A DNA stretch of 64,000 bases from Thysanoteuthis rhombus. Its lineage: Eukaryota > Mollusca > Cephalopoda > Oegopsida > Thysanoteuthidae. Below, one piece after another: positions 22,023 through 62,710 of this stretch (positions are counted from its first letter, which is position 1; each line of letters begins with the position of its first letter). Made by a program: the position numbers and the translations under genes. Where the stretch lies: positions 1,839,397-1,903,396 of the forward strand of contig OY735212.1 of the NCBI GenBank assembly GCA_963457665.1, written 5' to 3'. The notes beneath the pieces were generated by a model, which ran no database searches, had not been told where the DNA came from, and worked only from the letters and a program-made list of their open reading frames with translations.

Positions 22023-22575
22023 TTGGATACTAGTTTTCTTGGTGGTAATAAGGTTGTATATTTATAAAATAGGAGTTGAAAAAAAAACATATTTCAAAAT
22101 CATCGGCTAAGTATAAATTTTGTTGGACGTGTTATTTCTAAAACAAACATCTCATTAGGAGTTAGACCAAAGCAAGAGTTCCATGATGATATTCAAAACT
22201 TGTTCCAAGCCTAGTAGTATACTAACGACTATTTTCCAGTTTGGAGTGCACCTTTGCACCCTACTTAACAGCCAAGATACGCCTAATGGTCGAGACGGCT
22301 CTGTGCATATATTTTCTATACATATACGTACATAACAAACATTTACAGAAACCTATTGTTATGGTGAAAAAGAAATGAAAATCAACTGATAAATTGTGTC
22401 ATTGGTGTAATTCGTTTTACTGAAGGCTTCAAATTATTACATACATGCGCGTGCACACGAACATAACACGCGAAAAGACATTGGTTGAGACTTTGTGTGT
22501 TTGTGTGTGTACACTCGCATGTGTGTGAGCACGCCCATATAGGTGTGTGAGAGAGAAATAAAAAAAAGAAGAAAT
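22023..22575. other. Region downstream of the beta-MSP-like gene
   Basis: Contains (TG)n/(CA)n-rich sequence at about 22490-22550. No gene seen. Confidence 0.4.
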
Positions 22576-22600: not shown

Positions 22601-22606
22601 TTTATT
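22601..22606 (-). terminator. Polyadenylation signal of beta-MSP-like gene
   Basis: On the minus strand AATAAA occurs 37 bases after the stop codon (in 'tttgaataaagtg'), giving a very short 3' UTR with cleavage expected near 22580-22590. Confidence 0.7.
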
Positions 22607-22642: not shown

Positions 22643-22754
22643 TTAATGAGACTGGCACAAGGCAGTTTTCTCCATATTCAAAAATACCGGATCACAGTGA
22701 TCTGGAACAGTCACACATCCTTGCATTCTCATAATACCAGCATAATAACCAATT
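22643..22754 (-). CDS. Beta-MSP-like gene, coding exon 3
   Basis: Acceptor 'ctttctttacag' ends at 22755. It encodes IGYYAGIMRMQGC, PDHCDPVF and TALCQSH before TAA (22645-22643). This supplies the last three cysteines and the G-Y-Y-x-G block that follows the CC pair in the family. Confidence 0.85.
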
Positions 22755-25356
22755 CTGTAAAGAAAGAAAAGGCCAAAGAATGAAACTCAATTAGTTTTGG
22801 TTAAATAAACGTCAATCCATTTGTTATCAAAGTTAATAAGAACTCGACATGAAATACACAGAATTACCAAAATTAAAATCTTGAAAGCAATGACAAGTAT
22901 CGTATTTCTACATGAGATCAGCTTAGTGTTATGGGAAAGAAAGAAACGAACCAACAAGGGAAGGAAGAAAGAAAGAGGGAGAGAGAAAGAAAGAAAGACT
23001 AAAAACGGAAGAAATAAGAAAGAAGTGAAGAGAAAGAAAGAAAAGAGAGAATAGAAAAAATGAGGTGGAAAGAGAGAAAAAGTCAGAGCTAAAGAACAAA
23101 AGAGAGAAAGAAAGAAAGAATAATGATGGGAAAGAGAAAAGTCAGAAAAGAAGAAACAAGAAAGAAAGAAAGAAAGAGGAAAGAAAAAAACAAAAATTTC
23201 ATGAAAGAAAGAAAGAAATAATATCATCAAAAAAAGAAAGAATTTCATAAAAGAATTTCAAGAGAGAAAGAATTTCACGAAAGAAATAAAGAGAGAAAAA
23301 AATGAAAATAAGAGAGGAGGAAAGAAAAAGAAAGAAAAGAAAAAATAATACAGGAAGAAAGAAAAATTAAGGACGAAAGAAGGAAAGGAAGAAAATTGTG
23401 ACTGGAAAGAGAAAGCAAGAAAGCAAAAAATAAGACAAGAAAACACAAAGGAACAAGAAAAAAAGAAAAAAAAACAAAGATATAATTTCATTCAAGAAAG
23501 AAATAGAATCCATTCACTTGCATATTCAAATTATCTTTTTTCGTTGTTGTTACTCAGGATAGAGGAATAGCAATTCCCCCCGGATTTCCAGTAGCTTCCA
23601 CAGTATCATCACAGACCCCTTCATTGCCACGGTCCGGTCAGTCTAAATCCTTCTTCGAAACTCCAAAAAGCAAAAATTTGGGGTCTTAACATAACTGTCG
23701 TTATTTTGGCCCATCCATTATAATCGATATTAAATAATTATTTAAAACTATCGGTATTGAACTGACAAAATATGATAACCTCAAAATAACACAATAAATA
23801 CAACGAGTGTATTGAGTTCGATCATCACTGAGTGCCTTACAATTGTGACTTTGTGGTAGACTAAGCTGAGCTCAGAATATATCTAGTTTTTGAATGTGCA
23901 CTTGTTGTAGTGCGATTCTTAAGATGGAATCTCACACCATTCGTCAGAGTAATAATTAGTCTTAAGCTTAAGACTCGCTCATTATTCAGTTTTCAGTCAA
24001 TTTCTAAGGAAACAACAGTATAGAAATCAACATCTTTTGAGGGTGGGGATCCACAGTAGAACGCTGGTCTTCCTCATGTAAGTGAAGTTTGAATTTTAGA
24101 TGCCAGCTGAAAACCCATCCAACGGGCAGATTCCAGCAAGTTCCCACCGAAGGCCAAAATGAACCTCTGTCTCCAATTGTAGATAAAAACTTTTTTTTAG
24201 GGTTCCTTTAATCCTATACCTTTAACTGCAATGCTCCGTTTCGATTGCTTGGGGGTCACATACAGATAAATGGAATCAGACTTTCAGGGTTAGATAGATC
24301 GATAGATAGATAGATTGGCTGTTATACTCACCCACAACATGACAATCCATTGTTGTTGCAACTACATCTCTGGCATCTCTCGGCATCAACCCAATTACTG
24401 CCTCTCATGAATTTGATTCCTTCGTATTCACAGAAAACATGCTGTTTTTGCGACCCTGAATACAAACAAAATGAAATAAGTTCATCAGAGCAAATATAAA
24501 GCAAACCTAAAAATCAAACCATAGATGTGATAGGTGGGATAGCATTATGATCATCTTTTATCGTCCGTTGTTGGATATAAACTTTCCCGAGGATTCGATA
24601 AAACCTCTTCGCAGAGCCAATACTTTCTGAATTTGTCTAGCTCGTCTCTCAATCTTGTATTCAGTCGGCCTCAGTTAAACATGTGAGCTCTAGGGATCAT
24701 TGTTATGAGTCGTGATGTCCATTGGTTGTCTGCCATTAAGGTAACATGACCACCCCTTTGCCATTTGAGTAGCATTGTAAAAATCATGTTTAGATAGATC
24801 AGTGATTTTTAGCTACATTAAGTGGAGGTCCAGTTATATTCGTGATCACATTTCACACGAGCAAGTGCAGTATGACTGTGTGAAGATCTAGCAAGGGACG
24901 TTACTCTTATTTCGATATGTCAGTCAATGTGCCTGTCACTTACTGGAGACCCTAGCGCATCCACTAAAACATTCAATTACCAGGATTATGAATGGAATCT
25001 GGATTTTGATCAGATGTTAATATACGCCTGTGCATCCAGTGATATAAGTGTGTGGAATGGAAGGAGGTTAAGAAAAATGGCGGATCTACGCCACTCAAAT
25101 ATATAATTACAAAAAATGGAATTGGCCAACAAAGTCTAAGATAAAATTACAGCATTCAATTTTCAACATTTCACTTTGCACAACCAATATTTTCCAACAA
25201 TCTCCTCTCTTGTAAATGCCATCAACATTGGGATTATTCATTGATAACACAAATCAAGAAATATAATGAAATTTCAGATCAAAATTCATCTCATACCATT
25301 CAGGCAATGAACTTATCAATTCATTCTCATCCTGATATGTACATGTTTCCTGCCCT

Positions 25357-25428
<72 letters not shown>

Positions 25429-26005
25429 GTCATTTATCGTCCGTTGTTGGATACAGACTTTCCCCAGGATATATATAGATGAAGAGTCTTTTTTTTTTTG
25501 TTGAAATAAATTGTGAAGGCTTTTTCGTCTGACACTCCTTAAAAGAAAATTCGTCAGAAAATGTTTGAATATATTAGTGTGCCGAGCGCTAATGTTTTGG
25601 ATAAATTTAAAATGGTTTTGCCTGGTAAAATCAGATACGAGATCTATTCAGCTTGAAAATGAGGTGTTCTTAAAACGCTTTGAGTGCGAAATCTCTCCGT
25701 TTGCACAGAACTGCTCTTTTGTTCTTTAAATTAACCAGGTGAAAAGAAGATCAGGTACGACTTGGAAGTATCCATCTTTATATGCCAAAACACAACTGGG
25801 ATTTTTCAACATTGGTAAAAAAAAAAGAAATATCGCTCAATTCAGTCCTACTGACTGTCCAGTTTTGCATAGTGCAGAGGTAGAACATATGCCTTTTGGT
25901 TTGAAGCGAAGGTTTCGAACCTACCTAACGGCACTGGAAGGGATACTGGATTGTCTATAGCCACCAAATTGTTATGCAAAGAAACAGCTGACTGTGGATG
26001 ACACA

Positions 26006-26058
<53 letters not shown>

Positions 26059-28515
26059 TGTCTAGAAAGGTTTACAGAATTAAGCATTAGAATACTTTTT
26101 TCCTTTATTTATATTTATACATAAACTTAGCATTGTAGTCTGATTTTGATTAAGACTCTTGGGTAAGAATACAGGATCACACTCTCCGGTGTAATAGATG
26201 GGATTATATCGTTATGCAACCAAATATTTGTTGTATAATCTCTCAACTGAATACTTCCAGATGATGTGCACTTGCAAGTGTCCGTAATGGAAGATCAAAG
26301 GTCTATGCAAATCTTTTCCTATCTCAATGCAAAACTAAACTAGAAAGTACCCAAAGAGTACATACCCCGAAAAGCGCAATTGTCAGACCCAAATCGCTTC
26401 TTCGGTAGTCTATTGCGCATCCTTACACAAAATTTCATTGAAATTCGGATCGGACTTTCTGAGATTTCGTATGGACAGACATGGACTTTGGACGACATTA
26501 TGTGCTCTTTGTATATAACTACGATCTAAGGGTGGTAATTGTGCATGAATCTACCCCAAAATGAAATCACTTCTTCCATAGAACTTTGCCAACCCTTCCA
26601 CAAAAAAATGGAAAATGTTGAGAACTCATGGAGATATCGAGTGGACAGCGGGACAGTCAGACATACACTTTCTCTGTTTTCAATTGGATTTTCCATCTCT
26701 TTATCATATTGTTCAGATCATTTATATTTCATGGTCTTATTTCGTTGTATGTTAGTTTCGACCCTTTGCCATTATTTCCTGATTGAGTTGAGGACCGGTG
26801 AACTCAATGTTAATGTCTTCATTGTAGGCTCTGACTATTTTGGTGGCGTGTTCCGAGTCGATTTGGAACTGAAAATTTGAGACAAACTCACATGGTTTGG
26901 GGTGTATGATAGCATAACCCTATTCAATATTGACAAAGTATTACCTTGATTTGATCGCTATCTCAAGTGGTCGACCCGACTGCGGGGCTTGGTTCAGAAA
27001 AAAAAACCTTCAACAAAAAACTTCGCAAACCCCGTTTGACATGTTTGATCATTCTAAATATCTAATCCAAGAAATGGTCATATCTATCATAATCAGAATA
27101 GTATGAATAATTATCTCATCTTATCGATCTACAAAGAAAAATTGTAAAATGTTCTTCCAAGTCGTATCCTGAAACTAAATGACAATGATAATTGGACAAA
27201 ACATCGTATAATGAGAAAATACGTCTAAAATGTGCTTAAATTTTATGCGTAATAATATGTTAAAATATTGTGCGTGGCAAAACTTCACTTTGATTAATTC
27301 TGCAGCTAGTGTATGCATAACGCTAATTTCCGGTTCTGAAATCAGCAGCTTCCCGACAAGAGTTCAAAATCTGACTGAGGCTATTTATGTTCTAATGCCC
27401 TTGGAAAAAACATGGATCGTTCTCTTCTCACTCAAGCTATAGGTAATAAAGTAGGGAAGACTGTTTTCTCTAGACTTTGGAGCAAATTGTGATTTAATTG
27501 GATATAATATTACGGCAAAATATTGCACGTCGTAAAATTATAACGTCACCGTAGAGGTTAGGTGAGAGGACTTCGAGTGAAGAAAAACAGAAATTTGTTC
27601 TTCCATTATGATGGCAATAACTCTTTTTATTCACGACAATACTACATCGATTTCTTCGTACAGATAAAAAAACACACACACACATGCACACACGAAGTAG
27701 TTGCATACATATGAATGAGTGTATCAAGAAATAGATGCATATTTGATCCGACAGAACCATTATAATATAATATTGCGTTATAGAAACTGTTATTTGAAAT
27801 GATCTCCCGCTGTTACACAGTTAATGTATTACTTGACAACCTGGACAACGTAAATAAAATAAACAATTAAAGAAAATGGGGTGTCGTTTGCATTATCGGC
27901 TGCTGTTTTGTTCAATGGTGAGAAGAATGTTACGTTGAAGCAGCTCTACACGCAGGTTCGATTCATGTAGCAGCCTCATTTTCTTTAATTGTTTATTCTA
28001 TTTACGTTGTTTGGGCCGAGTGATGCATTAACTGTGTAACGACGGGAGATCATTTCAATTAAGAGTTCCTATGTAATAAAACGCAATTTACGATCATATG
28101 AATGTGTGTGGAGGGATGCACATACCGGTAATGCAAACGTATTGATTCATATAGTTCTACATACAGACGGATGGACGGAGAGAATAATGCAAAGATATAT
28201 ACACAGGTTGAAGGTTCAAGCGGTGGAGTAGGTAACAGAGAGAAGAGAGTTGGCGAGAGAGAGAGAGAGTGGGTGTGTCTGTGTGTGTTTGTGTGGGTTA
28301 GTTCATTCTCCGGATCGGAGGACAGATTCCTTAAATGGCCAAGTGGTTAACTAATTGAAATAGAACTACTTACAGAATCAATATGAAAATCAGAAGATCA
28401 ATAGAAAAAGGTACTCACATTTATGGGGAAGGGTTGTTGCTGGACCAGCAGAACAACTAGCCGAAGCATAGTTGACTGCAATTACAAGGAGGATACAGGC
28501 AAGGAAGATCTTCAT
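22643..28515 (-). CDS. Beta-microseminoprotein (PSP94)-like secreted protein
   Basis: Three exons on the minus strand (28419-28515, 24332-24455, 22643-22754) join in frame to a 110-residue precursor. Residues 1-19 (MKIFLACILLVIAVNYASA) are a clear signal peptide with an A-S-A cleavage site. The mature 91 residues hold ten cysteines (21, 41, 60, 63, 65, 72, 73, 87, 94, 106). The order, with C-x2-C-x-C, then a CC pair, then C at +14, is that of vertebrate PSP94/MSMB, which also has about 94 mature residues and ten cysteines. Introns are 3963 bp (phase 1) and 1577 bp (phase 2), both GTGAGT...AG. Known members are small secreted disulphide-rich proteins: seminal in mammals, and in squid a member on egg capsules acts as a contact pheromone. 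The function of this one is inference only. Confidence 0.88.
22930..23510. repeat. Polypurine (AAAG)n-like tract in intron 2
   Basis: Nearly 600 bases are almost purely A and G on the plus strand, built of imperfect gaaa/aaag units. On the gene's coding strand it is polypyrimidine. It lies in the second intron of the beta-MSP-like gene. Long Lys/Glu/Arg and Phe/Ser/Leu ORFs across it are composition artefacts. Confidence 0.85.
23511..24331. other. Rest of intron 2 of the beta-MSP-like gene
   Basis: Nothing recognised beyond a short (gata)n run at about 24295-24315 next to exon 2. Confidence 0.5.
24332..24455 (-). CDS. Beta-MSP-like gene, coding exon 2
   Basis: Acceptor 'tttgtattcag' ends at 24456; donor GTGAGT starts at 24331. 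The 124 bases are 2 + 40 codons + 2, so phases 1 and 2 match the neighbouring exons exactly. It encodes VFCEYEGIKF, NWVDAERCQRCSC and GLSCC, the diagnostic cysteine cluster of the family. Confidence 0.88.
24555..24790 (-). mobile_element. RTE-like LINE 3' fragment in intron 1
   Basis: Inverted copy starting at 'catcttttatcgtccgttg' and matching the C-terminal coding end at 57985-58250: 'ttggatataaactttcccg', 'gtctagctcgtctctcaat', 'gagtcgtgatgtccattgg' and 'tgtctgccatt'. It is heavily truncated and lies in intron 1 of the beta-MSP-like gene. Confidence 0.7.
24791..25360. other. Intron 1, anonymous part
   Basis: No repeat family or exon recognised. Confidence 0.4.
25361..25472 (-). mobile_element. 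(TA)n plus RTE-like LINE 3' terminal stub
   Basis: A (TA)n run and a (ATC)n run precede 'tcatttatcgtccgttgttgg' cut at 'ctttccccagga'. This is only the last 60 bases of the RTE family plus its gatgat tail (inverted). The His-run ORF here comes from the tail. Confidence 0.65.
25865..26052 (+). repeat. tRNA-derived SINE-like copy with (TA)n tail, copy B
   Basis: The head 'agtgcagaggtagaacat' resembles a pol III A box and 'ggtttcgaacct' a B box, spaced as in a tRNA. The body 'gatactggattgtctatagc' and 'cagctgactgtggatgac' is shared with copies A and C. It ends in (TA)n at about 26011-26052. It is in intron 1 of the beta-MSP-like gene. Confidence 0.6.
26053..27771. other. Intron 1, with degenerate repeated phrases
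   Basis: At about 26340-26680 two loosely similar blocks occur ('cgcttcttcggtagtctat'/'cacttcttccatagaactt', each followed by 'ggacag' and 'cagacatgg/cagacatacac'), a decayed direct repeat of about 165 bases. The 113-codon ORF at 26539 overlaps it and is not supported as a gene. Confidence 0.4.
27772..28088. mobile_element. Fold-back/MITE-like element in intron 1
   Basis: Long imperfect inverted arms: left 'attgcgttatagaaactg' through 'gatctcccgctgttacac' to 'aattaaagaaaatg'; right 'cattttctttaattg' through 'gtgtaacgacgggagatc' to 'taataaaacgcaat'. The arms are about 105-110 bases and the spacer about 95. No coding capacity. Structure fits a non-autonomous DNA transposon. Confidence 0.7.
28419..28515 (-). 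CDS. Beta-MSP-like gene, coding exon 1
   Basis: ATG at 28515-28513, in the context gacaaccATG. Encodes residues 1-32, the signal peptide plus the first mature segment with Cys21. It ends one base into codon 33 at a consensus donor (AAAT|GTGAGT, intron from 28418). The first base joins exon 2 to give Trp33. Confidence 0.85.
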
Positions 28516-28628
28516 GGTTGTCTATCTTCTTGGGAATTATTGTACTCAGGCGAAAGGAATACAACTTTTGCTTCACACGTGAATTAGGGAAAGTTCTTTT
28601 CTGAAATATATGTTGATAAAAGCCCCTC

Positions 28629-28636
28629 TTTATATA
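28629..28636 (-). promoter_or_regulatory. TATA box of beta-MSP-like gene
   Basis: The minus strand reads 'tctatataaagagggg', with TATATAAA 114 bases upstream of the ATG. This predicts a start site near 28600 and a 5' UTR of about 85 bases. A focused TATA promoter fits a strongly or tissue-specifically expressed secretory gene; that last point is inference. Confidence 0.6.
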
Positions 28637-28639
28637 GAT

Positions 28640-30029
28640 CTACCCCGACACGCACTTGCGGAGAATTGCACTTGTCAAGGCCATAGCCAATAGCTGTGAA
28701 GTGATTTCATTGGTTGGAAACCTTAGAAGAATGAGATGTTTAGCTTAAAAATCAGGTGACATTAAACTGATGTTTAAGATTTTGTCGAATACCCTCTTCT
28801 GAGGAGAAACACATGACCCACATTTTGCTTCTATCCTATTTTCATTTAATTATCTCAAGTACCACCCCAGACCTTTTTGGTTCCTATGTCGTTCCCTGCC
28901 TCATCACGCCAAACTCAACATGTTTATCATCTTTTCAATTGTCCCCGCTTTTCTTCTATTGATAAAATTTCGTTGCTCTTGAAGTTTATGTTTTAGGCGT
29001 GGAACAAACATATCGTTGTTGCGTCGTGGTTGCTGGGACCGCAGGAACGAAACTGGAGATGGAAAAGAGAGGAGGGAAGAGACGAAAAAGCACATCTGTT
29101 GCCGAAACGGACATTTGTTGTTGAAATACGTTGAGCGAAATTCCAAACATAAACTCTTACCCTGTTACCAGGGAGGAAATACGGTAAAAGATCCATTTTA
29201 TTGTAGGCAAAATAGTAACAGTTAGAAGGAATTACATGGAAAAATAAAAAAAAACGAACATCAATACAGAATCAGGCAAAAATTATCTCTGTTAAATAAC
29301 CAAAGCATCTATCTATCTTATTGGCAAGATCAGTTGTGAGGACACAATAAGATCAACAAAGTCACCAAAAGTTTGTGTCACCTATCCTACGGTCATCCTG
29401 AGGTCGTTATTTACAGACACAATTCTGTAGCCGGTGGTTTGCAGCCGTCTCCCTTTAGTTTGGGAATGTCTAAATTGACCTGAACTTGGATTGGCCCTTA
29501 GGAGGACCACGGACTTGGAGAATTTCCAATTCGAAGGAATGCAAAAAAAGCTGACTTAGCCTCTCCAGATGAAATGAAGCGACTTCTGTTATGAACCCTG
29601 GGTGCTCTGTTTAACCACAGGTAGCGTACCTCTTTTGGGGGGCAGAACCTTTAATTGGGATCTAGATAACTGCATTGCGTGGTTAAGAAAGAACTATCCG
29701 ACTTTAAAAAGATAAATACATGCTAGTCCCAGCGATAATACATTGCTAAAGGACAAAAGATTCACAGTCAGCTAAAATTCTCATCATTCTTTGAGTATCT
29801 GGATTCAGTAATTAACCTGATTCAACGCTGCCTTGCTTTTGCGTCGTCAAGAGCGCATACGCGTTTCCCAACACATGTTCATGTATCGCGCGTACAGGCC
29901 TCATCAATGGAGCTCAAGGGTTAGGAATTTGAACATTTTTTCTTATTCCTTCTCTAAATAGGTTTCTAGCGCAGGGTTCAAATTACAATGTAAGTTTATA
30001 CAAAATTGGAGGGTTATTTTGTGTCCAGT
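28640..30029. other. Upstream of the beta-MSP-like gene; no gene seen
   Basis: ORFs at 28904-29225 on both strands lack recognisable domains and good codon structure. Nothing else could be supported. Confidence 0.4.
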
Positions 30030-36889: not shown

Positions 36890-37015
36890 AGATGTACACA
36901 CCGCTATCAGAAAATCTGTTTTCAACTAAATGTATGACACTCTTGGATGGATTCAAACCACCAATCTTTCGGTTAACAGCCTAAAGCACTAACCTGCTGC
37001 GCCACAAACGCATAT
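36890..37015 (-). repeat. tRNA-derived SINE
   Basis: The minus strand reads 'tgtggcgcagcaggttagtg' (A-box-like), a stem with 'taaccgaaag', and 'ggtttgaatccatcc' (B-box-like), then a body ending near an (AC)n run at 36855. The layout is that of a tRNA-derived SINE head; the acceptor stem does not pair. Confidence 0.6.
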
Positions 37016-59300: not shown

Positions 59301-60954
59301 GAATGGTTCAGAGTTTGAAAGGCAATACTTTAGTAAAGTTCCATGTTTCAGTTCCGTTGGTGCCCGTCGGGAGGTTGCATAGGTTGAAGACACTTCTTTT
59401 TAAAACCAATGAGATCTTGCAAACCGAGGGCGATTCTTTGTTTGAATTCTTCTCCTATGAACAAATTAAATGAATAAAACCTCCTTTTCCAAAAATGTTC
59501 CTTTTTGCTTTCTTTTTTTAGTTGGATTTGCGGTTTTCATCTTTTTAATCATCTATGCAGCAGTACTGGGCTTACCAGAAAAAGTGGGCATCCACAATCA
59601 TATCCTTTTGAATAGAATCCAAGGACTTATATCTGAAAAAACAACTCAACAAATGGTATCTGACAGATATGTAACAACTTCGACGACAAAAATTAATCAA
59701 CTCGAGAAAATTACAATGAAAATTACGAAAGCAACTGCTAAAATGGTACCAAAAAACAAACCCAAAAAAGCATTGATAAAAATATTTGCGACTTCACCAT
59801 CTGAAAAATCAGCAACAAGGAACGTGACGTTGGCATTTCAAACCACGACGATGGTAGTTGGGAGAGTTAAATGGATATTGACGACAAAAATAAATCACCA
59901 AAAAGAGATAACAACGAAAAGTATAAAAGAAAAAACTCCAACGATGACAACAACAGCAACAACAACGACAACAAAAATACCAAATACGACGATTATGAAA
60001 ATACTGACAATTACACCACCCAGAAATCCATCGAAAAGTCAAGGGATTCCGAAAACCTCTAAAGTTCATTCCAAAACGACAGCTCTACCAAAACATTTTA
60101 TATGTCTCAATTCTATGGGTCGTTTGGGTAATTTGATGTTCGAGTACGCTTCAGCGTATGGGATCGCCCGATCCAAAGGTATGGACGTGATTATCTCGGA
60201 AAAGGAACGTATTGTCAAGATATTTCACCTCAATCGTGGTGGTAGGGTTGTGAAGGATACTTCAATGTGTAAAGGTGTAAGAACAATAAGTGAAGCTCGG
60301 GCCAGTGCCTTTGACAAAAAGACAATAAACTTTAGTAATGATAAAAACGTTGCCTTATGGGGCTATCTACAGTCTTACAAATACTTCGATGAAGTATCAG
60401 ACGAGATACGCCGTCAGTTCACTTTTCGGGATTCCTTTAAAATCAAAGCAGAGAAAGTAATTCGCGGAATTCTTGAAGAACATCTCAAAAAACATAAGAA
60501 TGAAAGCCAAGATTGGACATTTGTTGCTGTGCATGTTCGGCGCGGAGATATGGTGAATCATCCACATGGCTATATGGTAGCTCCCAAAGAATATTTTCAC
60601 CGAACTCAAAATATGTTCCGAGCTTTAAAACAACACGTTATATTTGTTGTTTGCTCAGATGACATAAAATGGTGCAAAGCCAATATGAAGTCTAACGATA
60701 CGTACTTTGTGGAGGGGAACAGTCCTGAAGTGGACATGGCCATCCTTTCTTCGTGTAATCATACAATATCCTCTGTGGGGTCTTTCAGTTGGTGGTCAGC
60801 CTGGCTAGCCAAAGGATTGGTTACTTACTTTTGCCCACCAGCAAGACCAGGATCTGGACTTAGAAGAGCATATAGCAAAGACTTCAGTGACTATTTTCCG
60901 TCTAAATGGATCAGAGTAGAATTGAAGAAGATTCCAAAAGTTTCAGATGAATAA
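56327..60954 (+). CDS. GT11 alpha-1,2-fucosyltransferase-like type II Golgi protein
   Basis: Family enzymes transfer fucose from GDP-fucose to galactose-containing glycans in the Golgi. The proposed gene joins 56327-56369 to 59522-60954 (phase 1), giving 490 residues: a 13-residue tail with Arg/Lys, a signal anchor at about 14-31 (VGFAVFIFLIIYAAVLGL), a Thr/Lys-rich stem to about 205, and the GT11 domain. The domain opens with FICLNSMGRLGNLMFEYA (from 206), carries HVRRGD (351-356, the GDP-fucose-binding H-x-R-R-x-D motif) and VDMAILSSCNHTISS, then GSFSWWSAWLA (from 417). N-glycosylation sites include NES, NDT and NHT. The stem is much longer than in vertebrate FUT1/FUT2 (about 345-365 residues in total). 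If the first exon is wrong, an ORF start at 59470 is the alternative. Acceptor specificity is unknown. Confidence 0.85.
56570..56760 (+). repeat. CACGTG-family repeat, copy 5
   Basis: 'aggtctggctcg', 'caatggaaaccgttgcatg', 'gggtgatcaatc' and 'gtgatcac' follow the order of the 7345 copy. The CACGTG core is mutated here. It is in the intron of the fucosyltransferase gene. Confidence 0.4.
56761..57978. other. Fucosyltransferase intron, anonymous part
   Basis: At about 57415-57450 'acatttcggccgtagtatcc' and 'ttcaggagatgaat' resemble the hairpin core of the fold-back retroposons at 21838 and 32957. ORFs at 57323-57665 on both strands lack recognisable domains. Confidence 0.35.
57979..58532 (-). 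pseudogene. RTE-like LINE, C-terminal end of RT (best copy)
   Basis: The 175-codon minus frame carries LLDGAETWNLTKRQTRRLRT, ERIMLGLTWRDHKTAQYIRE, LKWRLAGHVARMADNRWTSR, RDHMRNRGRQNVRWRDELDK and WQILGKVYVQRRTLKD, the thumb and tail of RTE-type reverse transcriptases. The 3' UTR is almost nil, ending in a (gatgat)n tail (inverted at 57979-58001). It is 5'-truncated in the intron of the fucosyltransferase gene. The open frame suggests it is among the younger copies. Confidence 0.85.
58533..59069. other. Fucosyltransferase intron, no feature seen
   Basis: Contains short 'gacgtca' and 'tgtgacgtcg' sites, but no gene or repeat family was recognised. Confidence 0.4.
59070..59385 (-). mobile_element. 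RTE-like LINE 3' fragment
   Basis: 'catcatcatcatcggtcat' then 'ttaacgtccgtcagac', 'cttccccgggatttac', 'gagtcgtgatgtctagcag' and 'ttccatgtttcagttcc' match the 57979-58430 copy with internal deletions. It ends about 130 bases before the main fucosyltransferase exon. Confidence 0.7.
59522..60954 (+). CDS. Fucosyltransferase gene, main exon
   Basis: Starts after a pyrimidine-rich acceptor ('tgctttcttttttta' + g at 59521) and ends with TAA at 60952-60954. It encodes the signal anchor, stem and entire GT11 domain in one exon. An upstream in-frame ATG (59470) exists, but that reading translates the acceptor's pyrimidine tract, so I prefer the spliced model. Confidence 0.9.
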
Positions 60955-62460: not shown

Positions 62461-62554
62461 AAAAAATGTGGTTTTTTTTTTAATTTCGACTGACATAAAA
62501 AAGAAAAACAATAAAGAAAAAACATCTTAACCAATTAGCATTGGACGCAACATT

Positions 62555-62710
62555 TCTCGTACGATCAGCGAAGTAAAGCAACGTCGAGCCTGGTCAGAAG
62601 CCAGATGGGTGACCAACTGGAAATACCAGATGCTGTAAACATCTGTTGAATTATACACAGGGCTTCCTGTGGCAATACCGATCTCTAAACTACGTTCAAT
62701 AACGCAGATT
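62555..62710 (+). repeat. 5S-rRNA-derived SINE, copy 2
   Basis: 'gatcagcgaagtaaagcaac', 'gtcgagcctggtcagaagcc', 'agatgggtgacc' and 'aaataccagatgctgta' follow the 3' two thirds of 5S rRNA closely. The tail 'accgatctctaaactacg' is shared with 55315-55480. The 5' part of 5S is absent. Confidence 0.7.

Follow-up and report, generated by a model that had tools for sequence, protein, structure and literature searches.

A three-exon beta-microseminoprotein-like gene of the squid Thysanoteuthis rhombus and its paralogues on one contig

A 64-kb window of the Thysanoteuthis rhombus genome (assembly GCA_963457665.1, contig OY735212.1, positions 1,839,397 to 1,903,396) carries on its minus strand a small spliced gene, here called W, whose 110-residue product resembles the beta-microseminoproteins (beta-MSPs). 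That W is a real three-exon gene we regard as practically certain, and its protein very probably has a beta-MSP-like scaffold. In the explanation that we favour, to which we give a probability of about 0.5 as a whole, W would be a functional member of a multigene family on one contig, and its product a secreted beta-MSP-like protein whose variable edge docks on a partner in an egg coat or glandular secretion. Beta-MSP-like genes are already known from squid, and W adds a member. It is also a clear case of a small spliced gene that is absent from a list of open reading frames (ORFs) and is settled by its own paralogues.

Gene model and paralogue family

Coordinates of W and its surroundings are those of the whole 64-kb window (Table 1). 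Scripted splicing of the three exons gave 333 bases with no internal stop, closed by a TAA at 22645-22643. An earlier note on this DNA, made from the letters alone, had proposed three exons with GT-AG junctions and phases 1 and 2, and the splice into an open 110-residue frame confirmed that structure. The upstream TATAAA and downstream AATAAA that it pointed out are present in the sequence. It had also remarked that no exon is visible as a long ORF; indeed, the ORF list of the window (100-residue minimum; ATG, GTG, or TTG starts) contains none of the three.

The genome of 2.73 Gb in 514 contigs was searched for relatives, and all match counts are lower bounds. The 110-residue protein found at least 33 exon matches at E values up to 0.001, all on C15, the contig that carries the window. 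W lies at 1.86 Mb of C15, and a cluster of related exons lies at 3.06-3.30 Mb, ∼1.2 Mb away. A composite of family exons, used as a second query, found at least 42 matches with E no greater than 0.5. All 38 whose E was below 0.01 were on C15, and the additional matches off it were on C32 (E 0.036), C19 (E 0.047), and C37 (E 0.47).

The DNA examined comprised C15 3055001-3255000 and four smaller pieces; the intervals 3255001-3256900, 3262101-3265600, 3271601-3288700, and 3291901-3300900 and the region beyond 3301900 were covered by the whole-genome exon searches only. Thirteen three-exon models were assembled, of which 11 are complete: W and, in the cluster, G1, G2, G3, G7, G8, G9, G10, G11, G12, and G13. 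The genome thus holds at least 11 complete gene models, with degenerate copies besides. The complete models encode 108-110 residues and have phases 1 and 2 throughout. In the G13 model, exon 1 lies ∼10 kb from exons 2 and 3, across ∼9 kb of unfetched DNA, and was joined to them because no nearer exon 1 was listed. G1 and G2 encode an identical protein at a synonymous divergence (dS) of 0.18. The other two models are degenerate: the frame of G4 is shifted in exon 1 and interrupted by a stop in exon 2; in G5, GTG replaces ATG and exon 2 is one codon short. Lone exons and fragments are scattered in the cluster, and G6 consists of two exons at 3159476-3161045; neither set is among the assembled models. 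The cluster also holds long inverted duplicates, one pairing 3205018-3209525 with 3241608-3246191 (93.8% identity over 4598 aligned bases) and another pairing 3119509-3123981 with 3168412-3172909 (91.7% over 4532 aligned bases).

Profile hidden Markov models (HMMs) of the exons were built from the ten other complete genes, with W left out, and searched against six-frame segments of the window. They recovered exon 1 of W with an E value of 4.1e-19 (next best match 0.28), exon 2 with 5.3e-22 (next best 0.82), and exon 3 with 1.8e-19 (next best 0.30). A 200-base promoter model made from nine other genes had a single match in the window at E up to 10, directly upstream of exon 1 (E 2.6e-48), and a 3′-end model from ten genes matched 22647-22545 (E 9.1e-15). 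A chance splice was considered and rejected in view of these leave-out matches and of the paralogue models with the same phases.

The upstream ∼200 bases of W aligned with those of nine paralogues with local scores of 62-102, the best of 100 shuffles reaching no more than 18 in each case. Further out, bases 201-400 upstream scored 11-22 against seven genes and 61 against G13, the exception; G11 had no data for this interval. The start of intron 1 scored 19-34 against eight genes, slightly above shuffles, with G13 again an exception at 44. TATAAA stands at the corresponding place in all 13 aligned upstream regions (G12 was left out, its upstream DNA not having been fetched). The shared promoter of ∼200 bases suggests that the copies are under common regulation.

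In two trees W formed a branch of its own, the exact placement of which was not resolved. Against the ten complete paralogues its ratio of nonsynonymous to synonymous divergence (dN/dS) was 0.27-0.57 at dS 0.51-1.31, ratios that also include the paralogues' own branches. At such dS values W is not a recent copy. As judged by its codons, the W protein is under constraint.

Cysteine scaffold and family assignment

The leader MKIFLACILLVIAVNYASA looks like the signal peptide that the earlier note took it to be, as judged by eye. Each of the 11 proteins has ten mature cysteines in the beta-MSP order, including Cys-x2-Cys-x-Cys and the Cys-Cys pair, so the order that the note had read from W recurs in all of them. 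The cysteine spacing in W is 19, 18, 2, 1, 6, 0, 13, 6, 12 (5 for 6 in five of the 11 proteins). That of chicken MSMB3 is 9, 17, 2, 1, 6, 0, 13, 8, 13 (letters from PMC8167871), close to W after the first gap. The last coding exon of W corresponds to the C-terminal domain, with the phase 2 junction right after the Cys-Cys pair. A splice junction between the N- and C-terminal domains is given as a family feature in passages of PMC3268785, where MSMP is described with three coding exons, as in W, and USM and MSMB with four. The vertebrate MSMB/PSP94 and MSMP proteins share with W the ten cysteines in one order and the position of this junction.

The best solved relative of W is snake small serum protein 2 (SSP-2; PDB 6imf chain B), with an E value of 1.4e-7 with the leader and 4e-5 without it. 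The SSP-2 score of W was reached by none of 2000 cysteine-fixed shuffles, and those of the other nine distinct proteins by 0-79 of 2000. SSP-2 resembles W in its leader, in the order of the eight cysteines within the portion seen, and in the core CLRCECDNDGLSCC, which corresponds to CQRCSCNNNGLSCC in W. It differs in coming from another phylum and in its spacings, 17, 19, 2, 1, 6, 0, 11 in the part seen as compared with 19, 18, 2, 1, 6, 0, 13. A profile of the whole family searched against solved structures found SSP-2 at no better than E 0.0034, the next entry being a haemoglobin chain matched in the leader alone (E 0.21). The score with a fragment of 1xhh, which we take to be porcine MSP, was reached by 42 of 2000 shuffles for W and by 72-151 of 2000 for three other members tried.

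Several results weigh against a beta-MSP assignment and with it against the explanation that we favour. Searched with the 110-residue product, the Pfam PSP94 model (PF05825) gave a sub-threshold match only, 16.3 bits against a gathering cut-off of 22 bits, in which W departs from the vertebrate MSMB/PSP94 and MSMP proteins. In a Pfam scan of ten family members (G2 being left out as identical to G1), PSP94 matched 5 of 10 at E up to 1, with a best E of 0.015, and the unrelated Rieske model matched 2 of 10, with a best E of 0.011. Weak matches to Rieske, VWC, and VWA_N2 occurred among the members; those to Rieske are surely due to chance. Run against the genome, PF05825 found none of the exons on C15 and one exon elsewhere. 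With W, 158 of 2000 cysteine-fixed shuffles attained the chicken MSMB3 score, and with nine other members 194-760 did so; the resemblance of W to chicken MSMB3 is no greater than the cysteine pattern alone explains.

W is therefore filed as beta-MSP-like and not as a Pfam member, because its PSP94 score is under the cut-off. The PSP94 link that the note had drawn is weaker than stated there. It stands on cysteine order, exon border, and resemblance to SSP-2, and we assign W to the beta-MSP-like proteins on these sequence characters; neither the Pfam score nor chicken MSMB3 adds to it. The note had also supposed a lineage-specific secreted signal or reproductive protein. The term lineage-specific fits copy number at most, because section 10 of PMC3268785, in the part available, listed MSMB-like genes of bivalves, gastropods, and cephalopods already in 2011. 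A PSP94 match on contig C7 (24.2 bits, E 0.102) was over the cut-off; it looked like a VWC-type exon by eye and was not counted.

The variable segment and possible functions

Residues 22-32, between the first cysteine and an invariant tryptophan, form a variable segment at the end of exon 1. The mean share of the commonest residue per column is 0.44 in this segment as compared with 0.84 in the leader, 0.73 in the core, and 0.76 in the C-terminal domain. Pooled dN/dS is 1.33 in the segment as compared with 0.29, 0.41, and 0.33, respectively. When windows of 11 codons are ranked by this ratio, the top six begin at columns 17-22. Over four non-overlapping pairs (G1-G3, G8-G10, G11-G12, and W-G13), nonsynonymous and synonymous changes numbered 21:4 in the segment and 117:75 elsewhere (Fisher p = 0.017), with segment bounds chosen after inspection of the alignment, pooled pairs that are non-independent, and a recently shared exon 1 in the pair G1-G3.

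Copy G3 (C15:3112249-3115161) is a mosaic. Its exon 1 matches that of G1 in 89 of 94 bases and that of G7 in 74 of 94, and its exons 2 and 3 are identical to those of G7 (124/124 and 109/109 bases) in surroundings that are only 87-89% alike. The G1-like stretch reaches from ∼210 bases upstream of the ATG to a point within intron 1. From this one gene, exon 1 with its variable segment seems to have been exchanged between copies. For the identity of exons 2 and 3 between G3 and G7 despite their differing introns, gene conversion is one possibility.

The segment appears to be positioned like the partner-binding edge of PSP94, as mapped by order after the first cysteine. Passages of PMC8857485 state that the N-terminal beta1 strand of PSP94 is thought, from earlier structural work, to pair with CRISP3, and mark F24 of PSP94 as important in a model with CRISP2. 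Two further points count against our explanation here. The match to the PSP94 strand is one of order only, and 19 residues separate the first cysteine from the second in W as compared with 9 in chicken MSMB3. On the four pairs, dN did not exceed dS significantly within the segment (p = 0.31), and relaxed constraint therefore fits as well; the segment may have evolved under diversification or under relaxation. Partner binding through the variable edge has, in our estimate, slightly less than an even chance.

The mechanism that we favour would run as follows. The protein would be secreted and would adopt a two-domain, disulphide-locked beta-MSP scaffold, and the edge just after the first cysteine would bind a partner present in the egg coat or in the secretion of a gland. 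The partner might be a CAP/CRISP protein, as for PSP94 and SSP-2, or else a receptor on an animal touching the eggs, as supposed for squid beta-MSP. The beta-MSP of Loligo is said to act as an egg-capsule contact pheromone, as Cummins et al. reportedly described in 2011. It shares with W the standing of a cephalopod beta-MSP-like protein. Squid beta-MSP is described, in the parts of three sources consulted, as a female gland product found in the egg mass or capsule that triggers male aggression (PMC10036341, PMC3268785, PMC4500399). Few single proteins are said to release a complex behaviour, and squid beta-MSP is one of them. Passages of PMC8857485 describe PSP94 as a blocker of the sterol binding of CAP proteins and SSP-2 as a triflin-binding protein. 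A role of W in a reproductive gland or egg coat has about an even chance.

An extended form of this explanation is unlikely. In it, the squid genes would form a ligand family built for diversity, with a fixed ten-cysteine scaffold, a shared promoter, and a partner-binding edge at the end of exon 1 exchangeable through recombination in intron 1, together marking the egg coat with a chemical code of identity. If so, mates, sperm proteins, or receptors would meet edges that differ from copy to copy. If the array is indeed a constant scaffold with one variable edge, then binding, copy number, and the marking of species or individuals can be tested copy by copy. We found no description of a cephalopod beta-MSP array, its shared promoter, or an edge-like variable segment in the titles, abstract openings, and passages of the open-access literature consulted.

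Other readings of W were weighed. Defence of egg or mucosa, by antimicrobial or barrier proteins of the egg coat or mucus whose variable edge tracks microbes and not mates, is unlikely. In chicken, MSMB3 occurs in egg white and is reported to act against bacteria (PMC8167871, in part), and MSMB is among genes differing between cuttlefish developmental stages, in a direction not clear from the text available (PMC5085775); however, the only function reported for the squid member in the literature consulted is behavioural (PMC10036341). We give little credence to an inhibitor of the animal's own CAP/CRISP-type secretions, such as saliva, which might act in the manner of SSP-2 on triflin, even with the snake SSP genes likewise lying in an array according to a passage of PMC6609765.

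A secreted protein linked to repair or regeneration is improbable. The model for it is Apostichopus japonicus, in which, as far as the consulted part of PMC5638244 goes, eleven tandem PSP94-like genes, assigned by cysteine topology, rise after evisceration. Their number equals that of the complete models here, but layout and cysteine pattern are all that is shared with this regeneration-linked array, and the sea cucumber is an echinoderm. Finally, that W is a decaying, disused copy outside the main cluster, as its distance from the cluster and the degenerate copies there might suggest, is very hard to reconcile with its open frame, splice sites, promoter, and 3′ end and with its dN/dS against each of the ten complete paralogues, even though these ratios count the paralogue branches too.

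Features of the window and other loci

Table 1. Features of W and its flanks in the 64-kb window
Feature	Position	Strand	Basis
Promoter and 5′ leader block, common to paralogues	28516..28723	-	Leave-out nhmmer model
TATAAA box, within GATCTATATAAA	28629..28634	-	Sequence; conserved in aligned upstream regions
Coding exon 1, covering residues 1-32 plus one base of codon 33, with the leader peptide, the first mature cysteine, and the variable segment	28419..28515	-	Splice; leave-out HMM
Intron 1, GT-AG, phase 1	24456..28418	-	Splice; phase identical in 11 complete models
Coding exon 2: cysteines 2-7, N-terminal domain core	24332..24455	-	Splice; leave-out HMM
Intron 2, GT-AG, phase 2, directly after Cys-Cys pair	22755..24331	-	Splice; phase identical in 11 complete models
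Coding exon 3, encoding the C-terminal domain with cysteines 8-10 and closed by the TAA stop	22643..22754	-	Splice; leave-out HMM
AATAAA polyadenylation signal inside conserved 3′ end	22601..22606	-	Sequence; 3′-end model match
Second, partial copy of 3′-end sequence	22367..22434	-	nhmmer E 1.1e-11

The partial copy of the 3′-end sequence sits ∼170 bases downstream of the AATAAA of W. Elsewhere in the window, a 494-residue ORF on the plus strand (59470-60954) matches Glycosyl transferase family 11 (E 7.2e-39). On the minus strand, a 466-residue ORF at 48879-50279 matches reverse transcriptase (E 3.2e-21) and, below the cut-off, zf-RVT; it is a retroelement piece. Rfam models matched a tRNA at 36938-37011 on the minus strand (44.8 bits) and a 5S rRNA at 62523-62641 on the plus strand (40.1 bits, cut-off 38), each of which may be a gene or may derive from a short interspersed element.

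Contig C25 carries, at 56607734-56625492, a regular array of nine matches to a haemocyanin unit, each with the same score of 97 bits in a frame of 464 amino acids and spaced ∼2.2 kb apart. A haemocyanin unit of the genome scored 835.5 bits with 4yd9_C as compared with 715.6 bits with 1js8_A, and a further comparison gave 160.9 bits for squid as compared with 141.0 bits for octopus. On this one gene, a decapodiform cephalopod is the likely source of the genome, and an octopus was rejected because the squid chain fits better. The C-terminal unit of 6r83 was ∼82% identical over 89 residues by hand count. Presumably, 4yd9_C and 6r83 are squid haemocyanin chains and 1js8_A is an octopus chain.

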